The translations under genes were made by a program, and so were the position numbers. The notes below the pieces were generated by a model. The model did not search any database, had not been told where the DNA came from, and saw only the letters and a program-made list of their open reading frames with translations. From positions 1-41,426 of the IMG/VR virus record IMGVR_UViG_3300032805_000067: 41,426 nt of DNA; one strand, written 5' to 3'. Origin of the DNA: a virus. How positions within the stretch are numbered: position 1 is the first letter of the stretch; the number at the start of each line of letters is the position of its first letter. Shown piece by piece: positions 8,538 to 39,342 of this stretch.

Positions 8538-8990
8538 CTATTGTTTCGTTCCGGCCAGCCCCGATGGTGCCGCCGGCGTTCCGGGAAAGCTCGCCGAGAA
8601 TTCGTTCGAAGGACCGCTCGACGCGGTGATCCCCGACGAAGTCTCGACCGCCTCGACAACGTAATAGTAAGTCACCGGAGAGCTCCCGAGTGTGATCGGA
8701 TCGGTGTACGTCGTTCCCGTGATCGGCGTCGCGTTGAGCGGAGTTCCGGAAGTTTCTGTCCCGCTCGAGGTGCTGCGATAGACGTTATAGCCGAAGGTGC
8801 ACGGCGATGTGCACGTCGCGGCCGAGGTCGACGCCGTCCAGGTCAAAACCGTACAGTGTGCGGCCGCTCCGCAAGCGCTTCCAGATTGCGCCGAAGCTTT
8901 GAGCGGAACAGACTTCTCCGCCGGCCTGGCCGCGGCCACGAATGCGGTAAAGAAAAGTGCAACTGCTAAAAGGCTGAGTCTTCGAGTCAA
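8538..8990 (-). CDS. Exported fibronectin III-like protein
   Basis: A 150-residue protein with a clear signal peptide: RR, a hydrophobic core LLAVALFFTAFVAAA and a small-residue cleavage region near residue 22. The rest is one beta-sandwich of fibronectin type III style (TVLTWTAST, YNVYRSTSSG, TYTDP, VTYYYVVEAV). Two cysteine pairs suggest disulphides in the periplasm. The start is TTG with GGAGG five bases upstream. It lies between the 3TM protein and the lysozyme, so it could be an outer-membrane or periplasmic lysis helper, but no lipobox is visible and its role is unknown. Confidence 0.75.
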   Translation of the reverse strand: MTRRLSLLAVALFFTAFVAAARPAEKSVPLKASAQSGSACGAAAHCTVLTWTASTSAATCTSPCTFGYNVYRSTSSGTETSGTPLNATPITGTTYTDPITLGSSPVTYYYVVEAVETSSGITASSGPSNEFSASFPGTPAAPSGLAGTKQ

Positions 8991-19351: not shown

Positions 19352-20710
19352 TTATGTGGTCGGAACCACGTAATACCAGACTAGGACTGTCGCGGTTCCG
19401 TTGCCGGCCGCGAAATTGTTGGTCGCCTTGCTGATCGTCAAAGGCGCATTGTCATCCGTCGGCGGATTCCCCGCGGTGTCGGTTGCGCCTGGCCAGGGAA
19501 ACGACTGGATCCGGCGATTCGGTGAGACCGTCACCAGGAAGATCGCATTGCTCCCGAGTGGCGCCGAAGCGGATCCGGCCGAGAAGCTCACCGCTCCGCC
19601 GGCGTCCGTATAGGCGTTGGATCCGCCGAAGAACTTGATCACGATCAGGATCGGAACGATCGCGAAGCCGACGCCAGGCGCCGCGACGAGCGTGATCGGG
19701 GTCGTTTGCAGGGCCAGAATATTAGCGCTCGTAAGCGCTACGGAAACGAAGGGAAGATCTTGCGCCACAAGCGAGCGGAAGCCAGGCTGACCGGCGGCTC
19801 CGGAGCTCGGACCGGCGAAGACGGTATTTGCGTTCTGGTTCGGAAGCGTGATCGTCAGCGCGAGCGTGCCGTTCGTCGTGATTGGAGATCCGCCGACGCT
19901 TGCCGAAAGTAGAGCGGCGGGAACGGCTAGCGTCAGCGCGACCGACGTGACGGTTCCGGTTCCCGCCGGCATGTCCGCGGTGACGAGAGTCCGGAAGCCA
20001 GGGGTCGCGGCGCCGCCGGACGTCGGGCCAGCGAAGACAGTGTTTGCGTTCTCAGTTGCTTTCGAGACCGCAAGCGTGCCGGCGCCAGAGATCGGAGATC
20101 CCGTTACCGTGAATTCCGCCGGCATCGTCAAACCGACCGAGGTGACCGATCCCGATCCGCCGCCGGCGACGACGTTTTGATCGGCGAGGATCAGCGGAGT
20201 CGCGATGCGGCCGAGCGTGTCATAGATCTGGACGGTGTAGATCCCGGCCGCGGCGTAGAAGTAGAAGTTCCCCAGTTGATCGGTGAGGAACGGATTCGGA
20301 AGCGCGGAAGTCGCGACAGTCCCGCCAGAAACATACGTGCCGGGATTCGTGATCGCGGCGAGCGTGTACGGCGTGGTCACGACGACGTTATTTCCGCTGA
20401 CGCTGACGATCTGCCATATCCCGTTATAGCCGGCGGGGTTCACGCCAGAGATCGCGAGATAAGCGCCGGCGACGACATCGGCCGGCGGAGTCGCCGAGAA
20501 AACGAAAGTGATCTGCGCGGTCGTTGGAGACCAGGACGCGGACGAGAGCGCCGCGGCGTTCGACGTTGCGGCGTTGAAGATCGAAGCAAGCGGCGAGCCG
20601 GGTTGCGTGCTCGTGTTTGCGGGTTGCGTGAGTACGGCGACAGATGCGCCGGTGATTGCTTCTCCGGTTACAGCTTGAACGCGGCCGTCGAATCTGAACT
20701 GACTAGACAT
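19352..20710 (-). CDS. Putative tail fibre protein with repeated module
   Basis: A 452-residue fibre-like protein. The N-terminus (1-40) includes AVTGEAITGASVAVLTQPA, a carboxypeptidase-regulatory-like strand pattern. A domain with YNGIWQIVSVSGNNVVVTT follows (about 75-125), then ADQN. Residues about 185-315 hold two copies of a 70-residue fibre repeat (GTVTSV ... ANTVFAGP.SG ... PGFR.LV..D.P). The C-terminal 130 residues are closely related to the separate protein at 38812-39342 (shared AYTDAGGAVSF, IFLVTVSPNRRIQ, KATNNFAAGNGT). The design suits a trimeric receptor-binding fibre. Confidence 0.75.
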   Translation of the reverse strand: MSSQFRFDGRVQAVTGEAITGASVAVLTQPANTSTQPGSPLASIFNAATSNAAALSSASWSPTTAQITFVFSATPPADVVAGAYLAISGVNPAGYNGIWQIVSVSGNNVVVTTPYTLAAITNPGTYVSGGTVATSALPNPFLTDQLGNFYFYAAAGIYTVQIYDTLGRIATPLILADQNVVAGGGSGSVTSVGLTMPAEFTVTGSPISGAGTLAVSKATENANTVFAGPTSGGAATPGFRTLVTADMPAGTGTVTSVALTLAVPAALLSASVGGSPITTNGTLALTITLPNQNANTVFAGPSSGAAGQPGFRSLVAQDLPFVSVALTSANILALQTTPITLVAAPGVGFAIVPILIVIKFFGGSNAYTDAGGAVSFSAGSASAPLGSNAIFLVTVSPNRRIQSFPWPGATDTAGNPPTDDNAPLTISKATNNFAAGNGTATVLVWYYVVPTT

Positions 20711-27855: not shown

Positions 27856-30342
27856 TTACTGAATCGCGCCGACGGTTGCCGGCGGAGCTTTTTTCGCGGC
27901 CGCAGTTGCGAGCTCGGCCGCTTTATCCTGATTCTCTTCCGCTTGCATTTTTGCGGGGTTTAGCTGGATCCCGACCTTGGCCGCGGCCTGAACCTGGCCA
28001 TCGATCGGGAGATCCTTGAAATTGATGCTCAAACTCTCAGAGACGGGCTTCTCCGGAGGTCCTTGCTTGCCGGCCTGCTGCGAAGCGAGCGCGTTTTTGT
28101 GCTCGTCATAGTGGAGACGAAGATTCGCGAAGCCTTCGGGATTGTCGACTCGAGCGCGGATCCCTTCGGCTTTATTCGCGAACGTCTTGATCTCTCCCAT
28201 CTCGTTCAAGTGATCGTCGAGTTCTTCATCGATCGGGACCGAGGAAACTTCCGGCGGGATACTCTTCATCGCTTGCGTGAGCGTTGCGATCGCTACTGGA
28301 TCGGCGCCGCCGGCGACGAGTTTCGCGAGTTGCTCTTGTGCGGCGAGTAGCTTCGGATTCGGCTGAACCGTTCCCTCGAGCAAGAGAACGATCTCGCCGG
28401 CTTGCTTGGCGGCCGCTTCGGCCTGTGGAACGACAAGCTCGGGGAGTCCGGCCTTATCCTTCGCGATCATCAAGTTTCGAGGAACCGTCAGAATCGCGCC
28501 GAGCACAGGATTCTTTTCGGCCGCGGCCATGAGTTGTTGCCACACGGCGCGCTGCGCTACCCAAGACTCGGGGAAGTTCTCGTCCGTGTCCGGATAGCAT
28601 CGAATATTGCCCTTGAGATCTTCGGAGTTGATCCGCAGATGCTCTTTGACGCCGCCGGCGGCCGGAACTTCGCCGGACATCGTGCCGTTCCGGAACTTCG
28701 CCGCGCACTGTACGGCCTGGCGAATGATCTGTGCGTAGCCGGCCTTGATGTTGCGCCAGGTCAGGCCGATGCGGCCGAGCGCTTGGTCCCGTTGCGAAGC
28801 GATGCCGCTCGCGGTGTCGTTCGAGCCGGTATTCCCGCCGAATAGAGCCGGGAAGGCGCCGCAAAGGAATTGCGCGAACTCGCCGAAAAGTTTCTCGATG
28901 TACACGAGTAAGCCTTCGGCAATCTGGATCTGTGGCTCGACGTAGATGTTCCCGGCGAGATCCTTGTCGGGCTTGCGCTTCATCTTGAGATAAGTGTTCG
29001 GCTTCCCCTGGATCTCTTGGAGCGCTTCGGTGTCGACGGCTTCAGAATCGACCCATTTGATCGGGATCAGGTGCATGAAGGCGTCGTGCACATAATCCAT
29101 GCAATCGTTGAGTTTCTCCTGAAGCGGAATAATCGGGGAACCGAGCGCCGGCCGATGCGTTCCGTCACCTGGCCGCGCGTGGATCAGCGTAAGGTGATCG
29201 TTCATCGATTCCTTGACCGCCTGGCAAACTACTGTGCCGACCATGGCAACGCGAGCGCCGTTCGGGAAGTTCTGATAAAGCCAGTTGCGCTTTTTCTGGT
29301 CTTTGATCTCGCGGAAGAAGGACGGCCGGAACCAGGATATCGTTTCCGTCGTGTTGTAGGTCATCGCGTCGTTGGTCATATTCGACGGACGCATTCCGGT
29401 CATGATCGAAGTCCGTGCGAGCCGCGCGTATTCGGTTTCCGCGCTCGGAGATTGCATCGCCTGGATGTCGTCGGCCTTTTCCGGATACTTCGTCTTCATG
29501 CGCGTGATATCGAACTCGCCGGCGATCTGCGCGTAATCACATCCGTTGAGATCTTTCGCTTGCATCGGGACTTTCGACTCGAGCGCGCCGAAGGCTTCGA
29601 TGATCTCCTGTCCACGGGGGCGACCTCGATCGACGGTCCCATCTGTCGCGGCTTCCTCTGCGCCGGCCTTCTCGCCGAGTTCAGGAAGATACGACAACTC
29701 GTCATCGAGATCGCTCTCGTGTTCGTAACCGAAGCGTTGCCCGTCGATCTGGTAGCGCGTCCACACTAGAGTGCGTGAATCGGTCCAAAGGAAGCGGGAG
29801 ATCTCTTCCTGGAGCACGATCATATTGTTCGCGCGTTCGATCAGCCGGCGAGCACCGTCGGAATTCTCGGCCGCGGTCATATCCGCGGGATTCGTCGGAT
29901 CGTCAGGCTCGAAACGTACGCTCGGCGTGCCGGCCGTCAATGCCGCGGTGACGGTATCCGCGAAGGCCAGGTAGATGTTGGTCTCTTGATTGTGGTCATC
30001 GTACGACTGGCCGCCGACAAGGATCAGTTGCGGCAGAACCCATGCGCCATTTTTTCCAGGCAGCAAATACTGATTCCCGCGGTAGAAGTAGCGCGCTTTC
30101 CACGCATCGCGCACTTCGAGCCGATAAGAAGAGAGATCGCGCTGCGCGGCTTTCATGCAAAGATCTTTGAGGAGTCCCTCTTTCTCCTCGCGAGTCATGT
30201 CCTCGTCGTTTTCGAGATCGACGACATCTTCCTCGAGCACGGCATCGACTGGACACAATTCGCCGGGAAGAAAGTCGTCTAGATCGCCGTTTTGCTCGTC
30301 CGGATTTTCTTGTTCGTCCTGCTCGAGAAGTTCTTCGGCCAT
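27856..30342 (-). CDS. Portal protein
   Basis: An 828-residue portal protein forming the dodecameric DNA channel at one capsid vertex. The acidic N-terminus (about 1-60) is followed by helices and the clip/stem region; recognisable portal-type blocks include WKARYFYRGNQYLLP, ETNIYLAFADTVTAALTAG, EEISRFLWTDSRTLVWTRY, ETISWFRPSFFREI, and a later segment with GNTGSNDTASGIASQRDQALGRIG followed by a long helix. The C-terminal 150 residues are helical and Gln/Ala/Lys-rich (barrel-like). The length is at the large end, similar to P22-type and podovirus portals. It lies two or more small genes after terminase. Confidence 0.88.
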   Translation of the reverse strand: MAEELLEQDEQENPDEQNGDLDDFLPGELCPVDAVLEEDVVDLENDEDMTREEKEGLLKDLCMKAAQRDLSSYRLEVRDAWKARYFYRGNQYLLPGKNGAWVLPQLILVGGQSYDDHNQETNIYLAFADTVTAALTAGTPSVRFEPDDPTNPADMTAAENSDGARRLIERANNMIVLQEEISRFLWTDSRTLVWTRYQIDGQRFGYEHESDLDDELSYLPELGEKAGAEEAATDGTVDRGRPRGQEIIEAFGALESKVPMQAKDLNGCDYAQIAGEFDITRMKTKYPEKADDIQAMQSPSAETEYARLARTSIMTGMRPSNMTNDAMTYNTTETISWFRPSFFREIKDQKKRNWLYQNFPNGARVAMVGTVVCQAVKESMNDHLTLIHARPGDGTHRPALGSPIIPLQEKLNDCMDYVHDAFMHLIPIKWVDSEAVDTEALQEIQGKPNTYLKMKRKPDKDLAGNIYVEPQIQIAEGLLVYIEKLFGEFAQFLCGAFPALFGGNTGSNDTASGIASQRDQALGRIGLTWRNIKAGYAQIIRQAVQCAAKFRNGTMSGEVPAAGGVKEHLRINSEDLKGNIRCYPDTDENFPESWVAQRAVWQQLMAAAEKNPVLGAILTVPRNLMIAKDKAGLPELVVPQAEAAAKQAGEIVLLLEGTVQPNPKLLAAQEQLAKLVAGGADPVAIATLTQAMKSIPPEVSSVPIDEELDDHLNEMGEIKTFANKAEGIRARVDNPEGFANLRLHYDEHKNALASQQAGKQGPPEKPVSESLSINFKDLPIDGQVQAAAKVGIQLNPAKMQAEENQDKAAELATAAAKKAPPATVGAIQ

Positions 30343-30539
30343 TAGTGGCGTGCGGACGCGTAGGCGAGAGCCAGGCGTGCGCGGTTCCCTGTCTTTCCTG
30401 AGTCGTGTTTGTGTTTTTCAGCGAATGCGTGCGTAGACATGCCGGCGCGCTCGGCCGCGGCTTTGAAAACCCCGCGAGTTCCGCGGCGTTCGATGCCTTC
30501 GGAGACTTTTTGCATCCATTTCCCCGACTTACGAGCCAT
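30342..30539 (-). CDS. Small basic phage protein
   Basis: A 65-residue, strongly basic, helical protein (MARKSGKWMQKVSEGIERRG, AAAERAGMSTHAFAEKH). Small basic proteins of this look are common next to portal or terminase genes in phages from environmental samples; function unknown, possibly DNA- or head-associated. It overlaps both neighbours. Confidence 0.75.
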   Translation of the reverse strand: MARKSGKWMQKVSEGIERRGTRGVFKAAAERAGMSTHAFAEKHKHDSGKTGNRARLALAYASARH

Positions 30540-30714
30540 GACCTTTCCCCCTTTTCATCCACTTCAGACTTTTTCGCGGAATGTCGTGACCTTCCTTCCG
30601 AGCGAGGGAGATCTGTATCGCGGTGGCCTGACTTTTCTTTTTGACGATCGGTCCGCCAGGTCCGGAGTGCAATTTTCCCTGACGGAAAAGCGACATTACT
30701 TCACGCGCTGGCAT
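30529..30714 (-). CDS. Small basic protein, DUF6496-like
   Basis: A 61-residue protein from MPAREVMSLF. The order REVMSLFRQGKLHSG, then KKSQATAIQISLARKEG, resembles small phage proteins (DUF6496-type) in which a Gly/Ser-rich segment precedes a KQAxAIxLSxAR helix. The C-terminus is very basic. It overlaps the neighbouring gene by 11 bases. Function unknown; a small head- or DNA-binding protein is plausible. Confidence 0.7.
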   Translation of the reverse strand: MPAREVMSLFRQGKLHSGPGGPIVKKKSQATAIQISLARKEGHDIPRKSLKWMKRGKGHGS

Positions 30715-31075
30715 GGTTTCGCGGCTTCGCGACACTGACGATCCGCACGAGCGGAATTCCGTCCTTGTCGCAGAGATGGATCTCGTCTTCGCGCATCAAA
30801 GGATCTTGGACGAGCTTCAGACCACAGAAAGTATGATCGAGAAGCTTTTCGGTGAAGGCTTCCGAACCTTCCGGCGCGCTTGTGATCACTTCCGCTTCGA
30901 CGTAGATCCCTGAACTCAGTAGCGCGGCGAGTTGTATCGGATGCATGCGCCAGCAAGCCGCGCGATTCTGCAGATCCGGCCGATCGCTAAGCAAATTGAA
31001 CCGCGCGAAGCGCCCACAGTTCGGAGTCATCCTCGAGCCAGCGAGATGAAGTTCAATCGGCGTGTTCGTGCTCAT
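30701..31075 (-). CDS. Unknown late protein
   Basis: A 124-residue protein from MSTNTPIELHLAG; AAGGGA lies seven bases before ATG 31075. The first half has scattered cysteines (CGRF, CWRM); a helix MHPIQLAALLSSG and strands YVEAEVITSA and EIHLCDKDGIPLVRIVSV follow. No family is recognised. It overlaps the cysteine-rich gene upstream by 23 bases. Confidence 0.7.
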   Translation of the reverse strand: MSTNTPIELHLAGSRMTPNCGRFARFNLLSDRPDLQNRAACWRMHPIQLAALLSSGIYVEAEVITSAPEGSEAFTEKLLDHTFCGLKLVQDPLMREDEIHLCDKDGIPLVRIVSVAKPRNHASA

Positions 31076-31430
31076 TGCAGCATCCCTTTGGCTCGACCAG
31101 TCCTTCGACTTCTTCGCATTCGCTCTCCGCGAGCTTCGGATCAGCGATGTATTCGCAGTTTGCACAGTGCGTGTCGCCGCGGCCGTAACCGGCTTCCGCC
31201 TTCGACACCTGGCGCACCTGGCGGAAGCCGGGATCCTCGACAAACGGCGTGCCATGCACGTACAAGCCGCAAACTTCTTCGTCGACGATGCGGCCGATCA
31301 CCTCGACGCATGCACCAGGTCGGCGAATGAACTTCCAGCACCCGCCACACCTGGCGCCTTCTGGCCGACCGATCGATGCCGGCGAGAAGTACAGGACCGC
31401 GGACTTCGCGTCTTTTACTTTTTCTGCCAT
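31053..31430 (-). CDS. Cysteine-rich protein, possible metal cluster
   Basis: A 125-residue protein with about nine cysteines. CGGCWKFI, then CVEVIGRIVDEEVCGLYVHG, then CANCEYI and a terminal GCCNEHEH cluster suggest one or two zinc sites or an iron-sulphur centre; the CGxCxxF...C...VxG...CxLY order recalls high-potential iron-sulphur-like phage proteins. Function is unknown. It belongs to a run of small proteins between portal and terminase. Confidence 0.7.
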   Translation of the reverse strand: MAEKVKDAKSAVLYFSPASIGRPEGARCGGCWKFIRRPGACVEVIGRIVDEEVCGLYVHGTPFVEDPGFRQVRQVSKAEAGYGRGDTHCANCEYIADPKLAESECEEVEGLVEPKGCCNEHEHAD

Positions 31431-31675
31431 GAAGAGCCGCTTCCTAGCCGGCCAGGATAGGGAGTCCGTTCGAGACCTGCCCAGGTTGGAAAAGGCGTTC
31501 GCTGTTCGAAGAAGTAGCTGATCCCGCCGGGATGCATGAAAAATATCAAGTCATCAATTTCCGTCGGCCGAGAAATTCTCGCCGGGAAGCTGTAAACGCG
31601 GAACGGCCAGGTCCGGACGGCGGTCGCTACCGCGACGCCGTCGACCAGGCTCCGGAGAAAGTTTCGACGATCCAT
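31415..31675 (-). CDS. Small protein with twin-arginine (Tat)-like signal
   Basis: An 86-residue protein beginning MDRRNFLRSLVDGVAVATAV. RRNFLR followed by a weakly hydrophobic stretch is the twin-arginine export pattern, although the hydrophobic core is short. The remainder is aromatic and Pro/Gly-rich with no recognised domain. It lies among packaging and portal genes, where export is unexpected. It may instead be a virion protein in which the motif is fortuitous. Confidence 0.65.
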   Translation of the reverse strand: MDRRNFLRSLVDGVAVATAVRTWPFRVYSFPARISRPTEIDDLIFFMHPGGISYFFEQRTPFPTWAGLERTPYPGRLGSGSSWQKK

Positions 31676-32149
31676 CTAGGCCATAAAGCCGACGTGCTCG
31701 CCGGCGTCTCCGCCTTCTTCTTCGAGACCGTGCTTTTCGCCAGCGACTTCGGCATCGTCCCGCGACATATCGTTGAGATGATCGGCGTCGTCCATGGCGT
31801 GCGCGCCGTGCTCGTGCGCTTCTTCGATCGTGGCGTGATGCACGGGTCCGTGCTTGTGGCCGTCTTCGTGATGCGTGATAGACGAATAGGCGTGATCCGA
31901 TTCGCCTTCGGCGCTTTTCTTGATGATGTGCGTATGCGCTGGACCGTGCTCCATCACGACTTGCTTGATCTCGTCGTGACCGCTTGCTTCGTGTTCGCCG
32001 CCGGATTCTCCGCCGATCGGCTTCGGTGCGCGCTTGTTCATCGAGCCGCGGCCGGAATTCGATCCCTCGCCGTGCCGCGTCGAGTCATAGCGCTCGACCA
32101 TTTGACGGTTGCCGGACATCTTGCCATCTCGAGACGTGAGTCCCTTCAT
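31676..32149 (-). CDS. Histidine-rich protein
   Basis: A 157-residue protein from MKGLTSRDGK (ATG 32149, overlapping the preceding stop as ATGA). The N-terminus is basic; residues 45-150 hold many His, Glu and Asp residues in pairs (HEDGHKHGPVHHATIEEAHEHG), with an acidic tail. This composition suggests metal binding or a charged spacer. No family is recognised. Similar His-rich proteins occur between terminase and portal in environmental phages. Confidence 0.7.
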   Translation of the reverse strand: MKGLTSRDGKMSGNRQMVERYDSTRHGEGSNSGRGSMNKRAPKPIGGESGGEHEASGHDEIKQVVMEHGPAHTHIIKKSAEGESDHAYSSITHHEDGHKHGPVHHATIEEAHEHGAHAMDDADHLNDMSRDDAEVAGEKHGLEEEGGDAGEHVGFMA

Positions 32150-32514
32150 GGTAGGACCTCGCTTTCCTTTTCTTCGACTGGAACTTGCCAAGAGCCGGAC
32201 GCGACGGCTTTTTCCTGCTCTTCAGCGGTCATGGCTGCCCACTTCTTGCGGAGCTCCGAAAACATTGGCCGCATGGATTCGCCAAGCTTGACGGATCCGA
32301 TCGACGGCTTCCGTGGTTCGGTTCGGCGAACGTAATCGCCGCCGGCCGGCGAGCCGGTTTGATTGTTCATAATCGCGAGCTCGAGCCGTTCGCACTTCCC
32401 GCGGTAGAACTCAAGATCTCGCCGCGCGTCATCGAGTCTTTTCCGCTCGAGCTTCAAATCCTGCTCGAGTTGCGCGATGTACTTCGCGGCGAGAACATCG
32501 GGCTTCAGTTTCAT
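32146..32514 (-). CDS. Coiled-coil protein downstream of terminase
   Basis: A 122-residue protein. ATG 32514 is chosen because it overlaps the preceding stop as ATGA; ATG 32523 is the alternative. Residues 10-50 are a strong coiled coil (YIAQLEQDLKLERKRLDDA), followed by a linker and a second helix (FSELRKKWAAMTAEEQEKAVA). No family is recognised. Confidence 0.7.
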   Translation of the reverse strand: MKLKPDVLAAKYIAQLEQDLKLERKRLDDARRDLEFYRGKCERLELAIMNNQTGSPAGGDYVRRTEPRKPSIGSVKLGESMRPMFSELRKKWAAMTAEEQEKAVASGSWQVPVEEKESEVLP

Positions 32515-32618
32515 CGGTGCCATGGTAGCTGTTTGACTTTGACGCCGAGTGCGACAAGGGCGCCGATGACGAATGTCGCCAGGAACAAAGCTCCGACAAT
32601 TTCGAGTACTGTCTTCAC
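32511..32618 (-). CDS. 35-aa single-pass membrane protein
   Basis: A GTG at 32618 with GGAGG seven bases upstream opens a 35-codon frame ending at 32511. The product is almost entirely one hydrophobic helix (IVGALFLATFVIGALVALG) with a basic C-terminal tail. The ribosome binding site and the overlap with the next gene make it likely real. It could be an additional holin-like or virion membrane protein. Confidence 0.65.
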   Translation of the reverse strand: MKTVLEIVGALFLATFVIGALVALGVKVKQLPWHR

Positions 32619-32622
32619 CTGA

Positions 32623-34155
32623 TCACCTCCGCCGGCCGCGGGGAATCTGGAAAGCTATGTCCGCGCTTGCCGGCTTCGAGCTTAGCCGCAAATACTCCAT
32701 GTACTTCGCGGTCGGATCCTTGATCTTCTCGACCGCTCGCTGAAGCCGAACTTCCCGCGGCGTGTTCTTCTCTGTCGCGTAGCTCATCACGCCGTAACGG
32801 AACGATTCGCAAACGTCGAGGAAGAGCTCGTCGCCTTCAGCTTCGGCGTCTTCCGGGACTTTCGTGCTTCGCTGAAGTTTCGGAATCGACTCGATCACGT
32901 CCGGACAGCTATCGAGCACGGCGACGTCTTCGGTATCGATCAGAGTGTAGCAGAGCCGCCAACCATCCACGCGCCGGTTGTTTGCTCGAGCCGGCCGCGG
33001 TAGATCGTACTGAACGAAGACGTCTCCCATCTTGTCGGCGATCGAATGATGCTGATCGACCTTCGAGAAGCGGTCCGGCGAGAGGTAAATATACGAGATC
33101 TTGTCGAACTTGTCGCCGGTGTGATTCGCCGCGACGATCTTCTCGGCGAGGAGCTCTTCGTTCGTCTGCCTGGCAATCAGTTGACGGTAGCAGAGCAGGA
33201 TCGTGCGCTCTTTGTCCGGATCGTATTCCGTTTTGATCCGGACTCGAGACCACCAGAGAACCACGGTCGCATGCTGGAAGCCCCAATCGATCGAGATCCA
33301 GCGATCTTGCCAGTCCTCGAAGACGACATCCGAGAGCTTCTTGACGTGCCGGCCTTCGTACTTGCTCGTGCGCGGGTTCCAGATTGCGTCGAAATTCTGG
33401 AAGAACGTGCCGGCGAGAATGTCCCACGAGCCCGGAATCCATGCGGCGCGAAGCACCGGATCGACGATGCCATTCAGCGCGGCGACATAGTTGCAATCGT
33501 TCGCATAGACGAAGTTATCTTCGTACGTCGAGTGGAAGGACTCGTAGTCCTTCGGATCGTAATTCAACGCGAGCTCGCCGACGGGCTTCTTCGTGATCCA
33601 CAGCGCTTTCACCCATCCGGAGCCGATGCCGTTCGGATTCGTGACGCCGGCCATGCGCGGTTTCACTTTGTACTCGACGCCGTCGAGCCAGTACGTTTTG
33701 ATCGGGCAGCGATTCGAGCCCTTCAGGAAGTCCCATTGCCGATAGGTGAACTGTGTGAGCTCTTCCCATCCGATAAACAGGTACTCGCCGCCCTGATACT
33801 GCATCAAGTCCTTGTCGGTCTTGATGTGTCCGAAGAAGAGCTTGGATCCGTTGTGGAACGTGACGATATGCTTCGAAGCGTTGTACGAACGGTAAAGCTT
33901 CTTCGGAACTTGCTTCGTGAACGCGTCTTCGATTCCGCCTTTTTCCATGGCGGTGAGCGTGCGCCGGAGCAGAAGACAGTTGCAGCCAGCGACGAGAAGA
34001 CATTCCGAGATTGCTTCCCACAAAAGCGCGGTCGTTTTCCCGCCGCCGCGGCCGCCTTCAGAAAGCGGATAGGTAGCGAGTGACGCGTGGAAGGCTTCTT
34101 GCTTCGGCTGTGGTCTGTAGTAATCGCCGATGCAAATGTCGCCGGCTTCGTTCAC
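32623..34155 (-). CDS. terL: Terminase large subunit
   Basis: A 510-residue packaging motor. The ATPase domain carries Walker A GGRGGGKTT (34-42), Walker B EYLFIGWEEL (124-133) and the coupling motif VTNPNG (171-176). The nuclease domain begins at ISIDWGFQHATV with its catalytic Asp at 290 and continues through the DPDKERTILLCYRQLIA region. Length is typical of phage TerL. The GTG start overlaps the small subunit stop as GTGA. It cuts concatemeric DNA and pumps it through the portal. Confidence 0.95.
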   Translation of the reverse strand: MNEAGDICIGDYYRPQPKQEAFHASLATYPLSEGGRGGGKTTALLWEAISECLLVAGCNCLLLRRTLTAMEKGGIEDAFTKQVPKKLYRSYNASKHIVTFHNGSKLFFGHIKTDKDLMQYQGGEYLFIGWEELTQFTYRQWDFLKGSNRCPIKTYWLDGVEYKVKPRMAGVTNPNGIGSGWVKALWITKKPVGELALNYDPKDYESFHSTYEDNFVYANDCNYVAALNGIVDPVLRAAWIPGSWDILAGTFFQNFDAIWNPRTSKYEGRHVKKLSDVVFEDWQDRWISIDWGFQHATVVLWWSRVRIKTEYDPDKERTILLCYRQLIARQTNEELLAEKIVAANHTGDKFDKISYIYLSPDRFSKVDQHHSIADKMGDVFVQYDLPRPARANNRRVDGWRLCYTLIDTEDVAVLDSCPDVIESIPKLQRSTKVPEDAEAEGDELFLDVCESFRYGVMSYATEKNTPREVRLQRAVEKIKDPTAKYMEYLRLSSKPASADIAFQIPRGRRR

Positions 34156-34433
34156 GCGCGCTCGCGGTTTCGAGGTATCGCCGAGATGTCAATGTGAACC
34201 GGCGGAAGCTCTTCCGATCCGGCGACGATTTGAACTGGCTTCCCGAAGAGATAGTGATTCGCAAGTTTGAACGACTCGAAGCGGATCTGCACATCTTCGT
34301 GGGCAAGAAAATATTCCCACTGCGTTTTCAGTTCCGCTTCGGGGAGAACCGAGTTCAACAAGCTTTTAATTGAATCTGTGACTTTGTTCGGCGTGCCTTT
34401 TTTGCGGCCGCCGGTCTTTTTTCCTTTTGCCAT
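34152..34433 (-). CDS. Terminase small subunit (putative)
   Basis: A 93-residue protein. It begins MAKGKKTGGRKKGTPNKVT, a basic start common to phage small terminase and related DNA-binding proteins, continues with two helices (SIKSLLNSVLPEAELK, RFESFKLANHYLFG) and ends in a beta/Pro-rich tail. It lies directly before TerL with a GTGA junction. It would recognise the packaging site and stimulate the motor. The assignment rests on position and basic N-terminus. Confidence 0.7.
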   Translation of the reverse strand: MAKGKKTGGRKKGTPNKVTDSIKSLLNSVLPEAELKTQWEYFLAHEDVQIRFESFKLANHYLFGKPVQIVAGSEELPPVHIDISAIPRNRERA

Positions 34434-35250: not shown

Positions 35251-37848
35251 TTACTGGACCTGATGCCATGTATAAACAGGACTCAAATTTGTGCCCGGTG
35301 TGCCGGTATAACTGTACGTCGAGCGCAGTTTCACGGTCACGCCGCTCGCGACGGTCAAGCTCGCTACGCTGGTGCCCGTGAGAGTAATGATGGGCTGCTG
35401 TACGCCGGTTTGGTAAGGCGTTGGTGCTTGGAGCGTCAAGGTATTCGATCCGCTCGTGGTCGCGTTTTTAATCGTGCAGGTTTGTCCACCGAGCCAGGTC
35501 GCGTCCCACAAAACCTCGTTCAGGCTTCCACTTGTCGTGTTGGCTTCGGAATATCCGCAATCCACGTCTTGAAGCTGAATAGTGGGCGTGGCAGTGGCGG
35601 CCTTGAAAGCGACCAGTCCGTTTGCCCAAGGATTCCATGCGGTGTAATAAGCAGGCTGAGAAACCGTGACGCTCGTCGCTCCAGCCGTCGATTGAATTCC
35701 ACCGAAAAGCCCGATCGAGCCGGAGTTGTTCTGCAGCGGAAACGATCCAGTCGTTCCCCACCACGTAGCGATTTGGGCGATAGGACTGTAGAGCCATTGT
35801 CCGGTGTACGGAACGACGAAATCTCCCGCAACGGTTGTCGTCGCACTCGTCGTGCTCCCCGAGCCGGTCGTTCCGGCAACGGCGGTCAACGTACTTGCGA
35901 CATCCAAACAGGAAGCCGCAAGCCCCTGCACCTCTATTCCACTCAAATATGCCTGGCTGATCGTCCCGGTAAAGGTTTGCGTAAAGGTTTCTGCGGCGGC
36001 GGTTGCGGAGTTGCAGTTATAGTACGCGCGGAGATACCCATTCGTTCCGTAGTTGAAGGCTGCCGCGACCGCGGTCCATGTCAAGCTCTGCGAATCGCTC
36101 GGAGCGTTTACCGAGCACGAAGCGCAAACGACGTTCATCACCCATATAATCCCGCTCCCCGCCGTCGTGTTGAAGGGCATCTGGCACGTAACCGTGGTGC
36201 CACTTCCGAGAGCGCAGTTCGTATTGTTTACATTCGTGTCGACAAACTGCAACACATGCGGCTGGGCGATCGTGCCGCCTGAGTAGGTATTGAAATTGCC
36301 GGACGCTAAACTGTTACCAAAAAGATAATTGAAGCCGTGGATGAAGTACGGCCCGATAAAGTTCGTGTCGGAAAAATAGTTCAGGTGAATCGCGTCAACG
36401 TTGTAGTACTGCGTATTGCTGTTCGCGCCGTCCGCTCCGAAATGCACGTTTCCCGCGAGATCGATGTACAGATCCGCGAAGGTTGGCGCGATCTGGCGGA
36501 GGATCGGGTTCATCGCGTCTTTAAAGGCATCCGCGGTGGTGCGGGAAATCTCCGTGGAGACCATGCACTTCGCTCCGGCCGCGTGCGCCTGCTTGCAGAA
36601 TTGCGCCATCTCGTTCGCCGTCTGAACGGCGGTGGCGTCTTGGTTTGTGCCGCACCAGAGCGAGACAGCATTGCGCCCAGCGGCGGGATGGATCAGCGGA
36701 AGAATATCCATCGGGAAACGGTAATTAAGAGTGCTGCACGTCGTGGAGTTTTGCGCGACGTTCGCTTGATACACGGGGTTCGTGCCGGAGAAAGCGTGGA
36801 TCGGAAAGTTAATCGCTTGCGAGAGAGAATCGCCCGCATGGATCAAAACGTCGGTCGGGTCGTTCAGCGTCGGCTGCACACAGCAAGCCTGCTGGGGGAT
36901 GTTGTTCGTCCCTCCGAGCGCCATCGTGACGCCTCGCTGGCCTGTCATCCATGAATTCAGAGCTTGCGCGAGTTGCGCTTGCTGCGGTTGCGTGAGCTGG
37001 CCGCTGTAGCCGCCAGCGGCATAGATCCTTCCGGTGAAGCAGCTATAGGGATTCCCTTGCGGGCTGCAGCCGAGCTGGTACACACCGCTCGATTGCGTCG
37101 GCGTGTTGCCGCTGTTCTGCGTGATAATAGAGGAAATGAGTCGCTGGCCGTTCAGATACCAGGCATCCGGCGTCGTGCCCGTGGTAACGCTAAGGACAAA
37201 AGTTCCCTCAAGGCCGCCAGCCATGATGTTGTAAAAATCGGTGCTCTGATTTTCGAGGACACTAGCTGGATGGTAGGCAAGTTGCGAACTCGGGACGTAA
37301 TTAGCGATGTGGCCGGACCCCGCCCCTGGGAGCCAGGCAGCCGCCAATACGAAATCATTTGCCGTGCTCGTCACGGTCCCGCAGAGTAAGCAAAGAAGCT
37401 CATACCCCTGACCGCCTGCTGTGACTCCCGAAGATGAATAGCCAGGAGGCCTCGGAAGAGTGTTGGAGATCACTGTCGGCTGAAAGCTCACAACCCAAAA
37501 AAAGGTTTTCGACGAATTGACCGAGGCCGGATACGAACATCCCTGCAGTGAAGAGCCGACGAGATTGATCCCGCCGCCGTTCGCGACCGGATTCCACGTC
37601 GGGGCCTGGCCGCCAGCGAGAAACGTGCACACGTTGCCGTTGCCGCTGGCATCGCTTCCGGCTGTTCCCGTGCCATCTAGAAATTGATTGAAAAATGTGA
37701 GTGTGGATGTGGAAGGTAGCGCGGGACTGCCGAGGCCGCCGCCGCCGCTGCTACTTGTCCCTGGCCCGTACCCGCCGGCGGGGTTTTGCGCGAACACACT
37801 GAACGCGGCGAGCAAACAAACCGCGGCGAGTGTGAGGATCCGTTTCAT
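35251..37848 (-). CDS. Exported SGNH/GDSL hydrolase virion protein
   Basis: An 865-residue protein from MKRILTLAAV. A signal peptide (residues 1-20, cleavage after Phe-Ala) is followed by a Gly/Ser linker and a LamG/concanavalin-like domain (about 45-300). Residues 330-500 carry the SGNH hydrolase signature: GDSLS with nucleophile Ser341, GTN at 400-402 for the oxyanion Asn, and DAIH at 485-488 supplying Asp485 and His488. The rest is beta-rich fibre-like modules. Such esterases in phage tails deacetylate host polysaccharide. A cleavable signal peptide on a virion enzyme is odd and may mean it is exported instead. Confidence 0.75.
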   Translation of the reverse strand: MKRILTLAAVCLLAAFSVFAQNPAGGYGPGTSSSGGGGLGSPALPSTSTLTFFNQFLDGTGTAGSDASGNGNVCTFLAGGQAPTWNPVANGGGINLVGSSLQGCSYPASVNSSKTFFWVVSFQPTVISNTLPRPPGYSSSGVTAGGQGYELLCLLCGTVTSTANDFVLAAAWLPGAGSGHIANYVPSSQLAYHPASVLENQSTDFYNIMAGGLEGTFVLSVTTGTTPDAWYLNGQRLISSIITQNSGNTPTQSSGVYQLGCSPQGNPYSCFTGRIYAAGGYSGQLTQPQQAQLAQALNSWMTGQRGVTMALGGTNNIPQQACCVQPTLNDPTDVLIHAGDSLSQAINFPIHAFSGTNPVYQANVAQNSTTCSTLNYRFPMDILPLIHPAAGRNAVSLWCGTNQDATAVQTANEMAQFCKQAHAAGAKCMVSTEISRTTADAFKDAMNPILRQIAPTFADLYIDLAGNVHFGADGANSNTQYYNVDAIHLNYFSDTNFIGPYFIHGFNYLFGNSLASGNFNTYSGGTIAQPHVLQFVDTNVNNTNCALGSGTTVTCQMPFNTTAGSGIIWVMNVVCASCSVNAPSDSQSLTWTAVAAAFNYGTNGYLRAYYNCNSATAAAETFTQTFTGTISQAYLSGIEVQGLAASCLDVASTLTAVAGTTGSGSTTSATTTVAGDFVVPYTGQWLYSPIAQIATWWGTTGSFPLQNNSGSIGLFGGIQSTAGATSVTVSQPAYYTAWNPWANGLVAFKAATATPTIQLQDVDCGYSEANTTSGSLNEVLWDATWLGGQTCTIKNATTSGSNTLTLQAPTPYQTGVQQPIITLTGTSVASLTVASGVTVKLRSTYSYTGTPGTNLSPVYTWHQVQ

Positions 37849-37853
37849 GTTTC

Positions 37854-38540
37854 TTATGCTCCGATGGTGATGATCCAGCCGACGGAGTTTCCGTTCGACA
37901 CTAACTTCGCGCGAGCGAATTTCGCTTCGGTCCATGTCGCGTCTAAGTGGAAAGAATTGTTCGTGCCGACAGTCGTGACGTTCCCGCTCGCGATCGTCGT
38001 GTATCGCGCGTCGGCATCCACATCGGCGACTTGGACGTCGACTTCGAAAGCCCCTGGCGCGCCGTTCGCGACGCCGTTCACGTAAAAACCGATTCCGCCT
38101 GATGCGCCGGCGCCTTGCATCGGAAGCGCGAAAGCCTTGCCGGCTTGCGGCGGCGTCGGCGCTTCGTACTGGATCGAGTTCGCCTGTCCGCCGGTAGCGG
38201 TGTCCGCCGGCTGATGCAAGATGACATCGTCGAGCGGAAGAAGCACGACAGTCGTCGCGTTCGTGACCGACTGGATCAGGTAATTCCCGCCGAAGCGAGT
38301 TCCGCCGACAGAAACGATCTTGCCGACCGCGGCGACGGAGATCTGATCGGTGAGCGTACAGATCTCGCCGGCGGCGAAGTTATGGTTTCCGGTTGTGACA
38401 AGTGTGACGATCCCGCTCGCTGCTCGAGTCAGTGAAGAGATGGCCACGCCAGCAAGCGCGCCGAAAGAATATCCGACGATCCCGCCGCGCTCGATTCCGC
38501 GCATCGGATTCGTCGGGCTTTGAACGGCATAGTTCGGCAT
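37854..38540 (-). CDS. Virion structural protein, beta-rich
   Basis: A 228-residue protein. The first 45 residues include GGIVGYSFGALAGVAIS, a mildly hydrophobic segment. The remainder is beta-rich: AAGEICTLTDQISV, VGGTRFGGNYLIQSVTNATTVVLL, and a C-terminal segment with SFHLDATWTEAKFARAKLVSNG. It lies between two fibre-related genes. No family is recognised. Confidence 0.65.
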   Translation of the reverse strand: MPNYAVQSPTNPMRGIERGGIVGYSFGALAGVAISSLTRAASGIVTLVTTGNHNFAAGEICTLTDQISVAAVGKIVSVGGTRFGGNYLIQSVTNATTVVLLPLDDVILHQPADTATGGQANSIQYEAPTPPQAGKAFALPMQGAGASGGIGFYVNGVANGAPGAFEVDVQVADVDADARYTTIASGNVTTVGTNNSFHLDATWTEAKFARAKLVSNGNSVGWIITIGA

Positions 38541-38811: not shown

Positions 38812-39342
38812 TTAGAGCGACGGTTCGATCGTGTAATAAACCGTGATGTGCATCGTCCCGTTGCCGGCGGCGAAGTTATTCGTCGCCTTCGCGATCGTCA
38901 ACGCGGCGTTGTCTTCAGTCGGCGGGTTGCCGGCCGTGCCGAGCACGCCGACGCCGACCGCGGCCGCGAAGAAGTCGACGACCTGAATACGCCGGTTCGG
39001 CGAAACGGTCACGAGGAAGATCGAGTTCGCAGAAAGCGCGCACGCAAGCGAACCCACGGCAAACGACACGGCGCCGCCGGCGTCGGTATACGCCGCGGAG
39101 CCGGCGAGCAAGCGCATCACGATCTTTTCGGGCTTGATGAACCATCCGGCGAGACCCGGCGCCGGGACGAGAGTCACAGGCGTCGTCTGAAGCGCAAGGA
39201 TCTGCGCGGACGTCAGCGTCACGTCGGCGACTTGCAAACCGACGCAACCTTGCGGACCTTCAGCGAAGCTAGGACCGCCTTGTCCGCCGACGAGCGTGTT
39301 CCACGTCGCGGGATTGACCGCGGGAGCAAACGGAGGTGCCAT
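38812..39342 (-). CDS. Virion protein sharing the fibre C-terminal module
   Basis: A 176-residue protein. Residues 1-35 are a short variable leader (MAPPFAPAVNPATWNTLVGG). Residues about 40-176 closely match the last 130 residues of the fibre at 19352-20710: ILALQTTPVTLV, AYTDAGGAVSF, IFLVTVSPNRRIQ, TAGNPPTEDNAALTI, KATNNFAAGNGT. The module probably folds as a beta sandwich or trimeric tip. It may be a second, stand-alone receptor-binding or decoration protein. It is among the first genes of the late operon. Confidence 0.75.
   Translation of the reverse strand: MAPPFAPAVNPATWNTLVGGQGGPSFAEGPQGCVGLQVADVTLTSAQILALQTTPVTLVPAPGLAGWFIKPEKIVMRLLAGSAAYTDAGGAVSFAVGSLACALSANSIFLVTVSPNRRIQVVDFFAAAVGVGVLGTAGNPPTEDNAALTIAKATNNFAAGNGTMHITVYYTIEPSL

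Follow-up and report, generated by a model that had tools for sequence, protein, structure and literature searches.

A candidate Sec-exported, disulfide-bonded fibre with an SGNH esterase-like domain in a phage related to those of Acidobacteria

Tailed-phage assembly is cytoplasmic, and a cleavable signal peptide on a fibre-like phage protein therefore raises the question of where that protein folds and whether it reaches the virion at all. The question arises here from a soil-phage gene in the viral record IMGVR_UViG_3300032805_000067, whose 41,426 nucleotides (positions 1 to 41,426) we refer to as the window, and which the initial annotation had described, from the letters alone, as an SGNH hydrolase with a signal peptide among fibre genes. 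The open reading frame lies on the minus strand, from ATG 37848 to the stop codon at 35251–35253. Its frame stays open upstream to 37935, but a start in that segment was rejected because it would overlap the preceding gene, which ends at 37854, and because the GGAG and the position of ATG 37848, 5 bases after that gene's stop, favour the latter.

Table 1. Coordinates of the fibre-like gene, its parts and its neighbours in the window.
Feature	Position	Strand	Remarks
Whole gene: signal peptide, Gly-rich linker, LamG-like, SGNH and C-terminal domains	35251..37848	-	865 aa; 20 Cys in mature protein
GGAG ribosome-binding site	37859..37862	-	~10 bases upstream of ATG 37848; overlaps end of preceding gene
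Sec/SPase I-type signal peptide (predicted), residues 1–20	37789..37848	-	MKRILTLAAVCLLAAFSVFA, then Q
Mature N-terminal module QNPAGGYGPG and Gly/Ser-rich linker, residues 21–40	37729..37788	-	motif common to fibres L011, L012, L020 and L023
LamG/concanavalin A-like domain, ~residues 50–305	36934..37701	-	homologues score with PF13385; Foldseek to ConA-like lectins; A3 alignment
SGNH hydrolase domain, ~residues 332–515	36304..36855	-	motifs, alignment, profile, Foldseek
Ser341 codon	36826-36828	-	SGNH domain
Asn402 codon	36643-36645	-	SGNH domain
Asp485 codon	36394-36396	-	SGNH domain
His488 codon	36385-36387	-	SGNH domain
C-terminal region, residues 516–865	35254..36303	-	ends ...YTWHQVQ; without family match
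Conserved 228-aa gene directly upstream, one edge of variable slot	37854..38540	-	47–61% identical in several relatives
Small conserved gene at terminase small-subunit position, other edge of slot	34152-34433	-	
Large terminase, other edge of slot	32623-34155	-	terminase pair spans 32623..34433
Second signal-peptide protein of the window	8538..8990	-	late region; TTG start, MTRRLSLLAVALFFTAFVAA; FN3-like by eye; 4 Cys

The N-terminus combines a positive n-region, a hydrophobic core and an A-x-A-type site, with no lipobox as judged by eye. Signal-peptide calls were made with a heuristic score that recovered 9/9 well-known E. coli signal peptides at 6.9–10.4; the window protein, with predicted cleavage between MKRILTLAAVCLLAAFSVFA and Q, reaches 10.9, and the proposed classical cleavable signal peptide was thus borne out. 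Two other readings of this segment were discarded: a transmembrane anchor, because an A-type cleavage site is followed by Gln with soluble domains behind, and a lipoprotein, because no lipobox was seen. Elsewhere in the window, the late region encodes a second signal-peptide protein (Table 1), and the relatives G010, G014 and G015 also have signal-peptide proteins in this region.

The description of the gene as lying among fibre genes proved loose, since it sits in a slot that is flanked by the conserved 228-aa gene on one side and the terminase genes on the other and whose gene content differs from phage to phage, the relatives compared being 52–72% identical in terminase and 75–91% in major capsid protein. 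Features of a tail fibre gene are present in its placement in the late structural operon, the phage-to-phage variability of the slot and domain swapping; receptor-binding proteins typically occupy such variable slots and exchange their N-termini. In the same window, a small gene upstream of the fibre gene (38812-39342) and a 452-aa structural gene (19352-20710, in the C-terminal part of its product) seemingly have a domain in common (LQVADVTLTSAQILALQTTPVTLVPAPG...), and relatives carry both genes.

On its own, the window protein gave no match in Pfam, PHROGs or PDB sequence searches. Its homologues L050, L052, L054 and gp342 of phage Tunturi_5 exceed the Pfam GDSL cut-off (SGNH/GDSL, PF13472, PF00657), some homologues touch Laminin_G_3 (PF13385), and a profile of eleven family sequences retrieved solved SGNH/GDSL hydrolases, with the best match (E=4.6e-13) to entry 9kr0, titled polyvinyl alcohol esterase. 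An AlphaFold model of residues 40–518 had a mean pLDDT of 61.6, with most of the SGNH part at 54–90 and its C-terminal half at ~67–90. With Foldseek, this model matched PDB structures of SGNH esterases and of acetyl-xylan esterases; the SGNH fold matches had E ~1e-5 to 1e-8, with TM scores (target length) of 0.66–0.72 to TesA. Its matches among viral proteins included ConA-like lectin proteins and the SGNH-esterase proteins encoded by Pseudomonas phages LIT1 and KPP21.

The motifs GDSLS (residues 339–343), GTN (400–402) and DAIH (485–488) had been noted as spaced like those of SGNH esterases, and the alignment, the profile and the predicted fold agree with this. The GDS, G.N and ..H columns align in ten IMG/VR homologues and in both halves of gp342. 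Block I GDS (339–341), with the catalytic Ser, is invariant in 11 sequences; block III G400/N402 and block V D485/H488 are present, with G, N and H invariant in the A3 alignment and the block V Asp not kept in L049 and L052. The block II oxyanion-hole Gly is absent and Ser368 stands in its place, as Ser also does in L050, L052 and gp342, which pass the Pfam GDSL cut-off despite it. The window protein is therefore predicted to be SGNH esterase-like in fold and triad, the model supporting the expected catalytic geometry at the level of the fold only, and given Ser368 its esterase activity is not certain. Towards the other end, several homologues likewise finish in a Trp-containing segment.

Among annotated phages, tblastn identified a single relative, gp342, a 'tail fiber protein' of Tunturi_5 (PP885688), which infects the acidobacterium Tunturiibacter. 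Like the window protein, gp342 combines LamG-like and SGNH domains with an N-terminal signal peptide and an even Cys count, and it adjoins other signal-peptide fibres; it differs in being only 27% identical, in carrying two tandem LamG+SGNH copies and in belonging to a myovirus. An IMG/VR scan with the single window protein as query found no match, while nine homologues came from an alignment-based scan (query A2) and a tenth (L023) from a motif scan. Outside the window, 10/11 LamG+SGNH homologues start with a Sec-type N-terminus, two of these calls being non-standard (the score of L053 is a low 4.9, and L023 was given its GTG start by hand). The exception, L050, has a fibre-anchor-like N-terminus (TPNVGLEVPDLNSSQWGTKLNFNWNLLD) and no signal peptide.

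The module that would begin the mature window protein recurs on other bodies. Fibres whose mature form would start with QNPxGGYGPG are L012 (a short body, 202 aa) and L011 (a beta-helix-like body), both in the variable slot, as well as L023 (LamG+SGNH, at another position in a related phage) and L020 (a different body, in a more distant phage). In all four, a hydrophobic signal sequence directly precedes the motif, beginning in L011 and L023 at a GTG with AAAGG upstream; some of the gene starts in the contigs (L011, L023, L053) were picked by eye. The L011 body recurs in L013 behind a different, signal-less N-terminus, and it is Cys-rich there too. A QNPxGGYGPG scan of 84,980 bacterial and archaeal genomes returned one match, an unrelated-looking ORF without a signal peptide that looks like chance. 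Upstream of the fibre GTG start, L011 (2023-2400) and L023 (912-1500) share a similar in-frame stretch (VNDxNFxFGE...NLAS...), which is probably not translated as part of either fibre. A further contig, G022, encodes a 1564-aa signal-peptide protein with 18 Cys (29587-34281) on the strand opposite to its LamG+SGNH fibre.

Signal peptides are a common feature of fibre genes in several unrelated Acidobacteria phages. Among ORFs of at least 250 aa, the heuristic flagged 34/447 in Tunturi 1–5, 13 IMG/VR contigs and the window, most of them in fibre modules, versus 4/397 in a small control set of ten phages (T7, lambda, P22, N4, Mu, Mx8, T4, crAss001, phiCbK and phiKZ; Fisher p=1.3e-6). The initial view that a signal peptide is unexpected on a tailed-phage fibre was supported. 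Fibre-module signal peptides were found in 4/5 cultured Acidobacteria phages, namely Tunturi 1, 2, 4 and 5; the Tunturi phages span podo-, sipho- and myovirus morphologies (PMC11924767), and the text of the paper describing them makes no mention of mass spectrometry. In Tunturi_1 (PP887698, L057; 10371-23028), 5/6 genes of the module gp12–gp17 have a signal peptide (gp12, gp13, gp14, the annotated tail spike, gp16 and gp17), as does every large fibre candidate of this phage, and Tunturi_2 has the same block. Tunturi_4 has two such fibre genes, gp113 and gp114, and an ordinary fibre without a signal peptide, gp111. In Tunturi_5 (L047; 34115-48449), six consecutive signal-peptide genes, gp337–gp342, are annotated as tail fibres, virion protein or hypothetical, and the structural-region genes checked upstream (gp319–336) and gp343 showed no signal peptide. 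Contig G021 has four consecutive signal-peptide genes. No signal peptide was found in the structural genes of Tunturi_3, no signal-peptide fibre was seen in some close relatives of the window phage (G002), and a scan with Tunturi_1 gp12 gave no match.

Several of these proteins carry anchor-like sequence next to the predicted cleavage site. An anchor-like segment, [ST]PNLxLxxPxxxxxWGxxxxxxxxxLD, lies at or very near the processed start of Tunturi_5 gp337 and gp341, Tunturi_1 gp13 and a G021 protein, and the same segment begins L050 and Tunturi_4 gp112 without a signal peptide. It is not in the window protein, which has QNPAGGYGPG, and is present behind the signal peptide in relatives. In the genomes examined, the anchor profile matched its own training members and the Tunturi_2 copy only, which leaves the anchor argument dependent on few sequences; among annotated phages, tblastn with the anchor-like N-terminus of L050 found no match, and with that of Tunturi_1 gp13 only Tunturi_1 and 2. 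Tunturi_5 gp337 also contains a common tail-fibre repeat, LPADPTSNMQASTKQYVD; among 42 further IMG/VR fibres retrieved with it, none has a signal peptide. Tunturi_1 gp17 and Tunturi_4 gp114 share a body (46% over 757 aa) that is preceded by ~390 residues in one and by almost none in the other, yet a signal peptide stands at the very start of both; it is kept in a podovirus (Tunturi_1) and a siphovirus (Tunturi_4), and three further family members also have one. Tunturi_4 gp112 (L169 5201-5641) is a 146-aa protein annotated 'tail assembly' that begins TPNYGLTKPDVGTDDWGPQVNTNFDVID and adjoins signal-peptide fibre genes.

The cysteines of the signal-peptide proteins are distinctive in both abundance and parity. 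Mature forms are Cys-rich (median 1.66% vs 0.82%, p=3e-7) and, with near duplicates removed, 31 have an even and one an odd number, versus 29 even and 48 odd among the remaining annotated proteins of these phages (Fisher p=1.8e-9); restricted to proteins with at least 2 Cys, the even:odd ratios are 31:0 vs 29:25 (p=9e-7), and long ORFs with at least 2 Cys in the control phages number 80 even and 86 odd. Parity was tested on the very set in which it had first been noticed, with no more than three proteins added since; these later members, with 24, 16 and 34 Cys, are all even. The Tunturi_1 module reaches 32 Cys and is even throughout except for a single-Cys 149-aa protein, and the signal-less relatives L050 (3 Cys) and L013 (19 Cys) are odd. 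In the SGNH alignment, cysteines are gained or lost in pairs (e.g. columns 28/43, 384/430 and 422/434), as exemplified by FC..KC / YC..KC in the window protein, L048 and L049. Oxidative folding outside the cytoplasm would be expected to give even mature counts, and their simplest cause would be that all cysteines pair as disulfides once the protein has been exported.

The presence of signal peptides on fibre genes of most cultured Acidobacteria phages suggests that the fibres leave the cytoplasm to fold with disulfides. For the window protein, we lean towards a receptor-binding fibre, equipped with a glycan-deacetylase-like domain, that is exported through Sec, acquires disulfide bonds and joins the virion at or after lysis; of these steps, export is well supported. 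From the signal peptide, its recurrence in related fibres and the even cysteine counts we infer Sec export, cleavage before Gln21 and oxidative folding, and we infer virion attachment of the signal-peptide fibres from the anchors, the fibre repeat, the gene position and the fact that Tunturi_1 and 2 offer no further large fibre candidate. The product would be a tail fibre (or spike) that binds the receptor; synthesized as a precursor for Sec, it would reach the periplasm and be cut after Ala20 to leave an N-terminal Gln, and its 20 cysteines would pair as disulfides during periplasmic folding. The LamG-like domain would bind surface polysaccharide, from which the SGNH domain would probably remove acetyl groups. 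Because most of the virion is put together in the cytoplasm, the fibre would attach through its N-terminal module as the last assembly step, when lysis opens the inner membrane. An acidobacterium is the probable host of the window phage, judging only by its relation to Tunturi_5 and the fibre style that they have in common. That Acidobacteria phages of podo-, sipho- and myovirus type generally Sec-export their receptor-binding fibres, fold them with disulfides outside the cytoplasm and complete their virions at or after lysis is, in our estimate, an evenly balanced proposition.

The main competing explanation, unlikely in our judgement but deserving serious consideration, accepts export and disulfides and holds that the protein never enters the virion, acting as a secreted or periplasmic enzyme or adhesin whose role would be to strip or mask glycans at the surface, to curb superinfection or re-adsorption to debris, or to loosen the biofilm matrix. 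Signal peptide and even Cys counts speak for export only, some variants in the fibre slot are short, like L012, and T4 Spackle gp61.3 provides a precedent (PMC7650644): a tailed-phage product with a disulfide, exported to the periplasm through a cleaved signal peptide, that limits superinfection, although it differs from the window protein in being a small lysozyme inhibitor and no fibre. Yet fibre anchors and the fibre repeat lie directly behind the signal peptide in several members, whole fibre modules consist of signal-peptide genes with no other large fibre candidate in Tunturi_1 and 2, the slot varies between phages as a receptor-binding gene would, and the homologue L050 has an anchor-like N-terminus without a signal peptide. 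Neither release to the envelope nor a block to superinfection, both suggested initially, gained specific support.

An ordinary fibre that stays in the cytoplasm, its hydrophobic N-terminus unprocessed and serving as a tail-binding or trimerization element, would fit the cytoplasmic assembly of tailed phages. We consider this improbable given the A-X-A site with Gln at +1 in 19/34 flagged ORFs (the score gives no +1 bonus), the cysteine parity and richness that point to an oxidizing compartment, and the lack of such a segment in fibres of other phages. Least probable in our view is that genes for secreted proteins were captured from a host, with the signal peptide as a passive relic of bacterial origin. 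SGNH and LamG domains are common in bacteria, and the nearest relatives by sequence in the PDB are SGNH enzymes that do not come from phages; but signal peptides persist from one unrelated fibre body to the next and across N-terminal modules and three types of virion, and QNPxGGYGPG occurs in four IMG/VR fibres and just once, without a signal peptide, in the bacterial and archaeal genomes scanned. This origin, too, had been raised by the initial annotation and found no specific support, the relatives identified in annotated phages and IMG/VR being phage fibre genes.

Virion proteins with cleaved signal peptides are familiar from filamentous phages, whose coat proteins pIII and pVIII are assembled and extruded at the membrane and are unrelated to tailed phages. 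We came across no account of tailed-phage fibres with signal peptides in the searchable literature, a scope outside which subscription papers and preprints fell. Polysaccharide-deacetylating tail fibres or spikes are known from Pectobacterium phages Possum (PMC9569702) and PP99 (PMC6989608) and Acinetobacter phage Aristophanes (PMC8471582); compared by description, they resemble the window protein in deacetylating host surface polysaccharide, an activity only predicted for the latter, and differ from it in that the accessible parts of these reports mention no export signal.

The accepted view is that tailed-phage virions are assembled entirely in the cytoplasm, and a two-compartment route has not been described for them. 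If a group of cultured phages does export its fibres and join them by disulfides beforehand, fibre attachment would have to be separable from the remaining assembly, exported fibres could affect the producing cell or nearby cells ahead of release, and such fibres would be mistaken in standard annotation for secreted host-like proteins. The cultured phage–host pairs of Tunturi 1, 2, 4 and 5 make the export idea directly testable.
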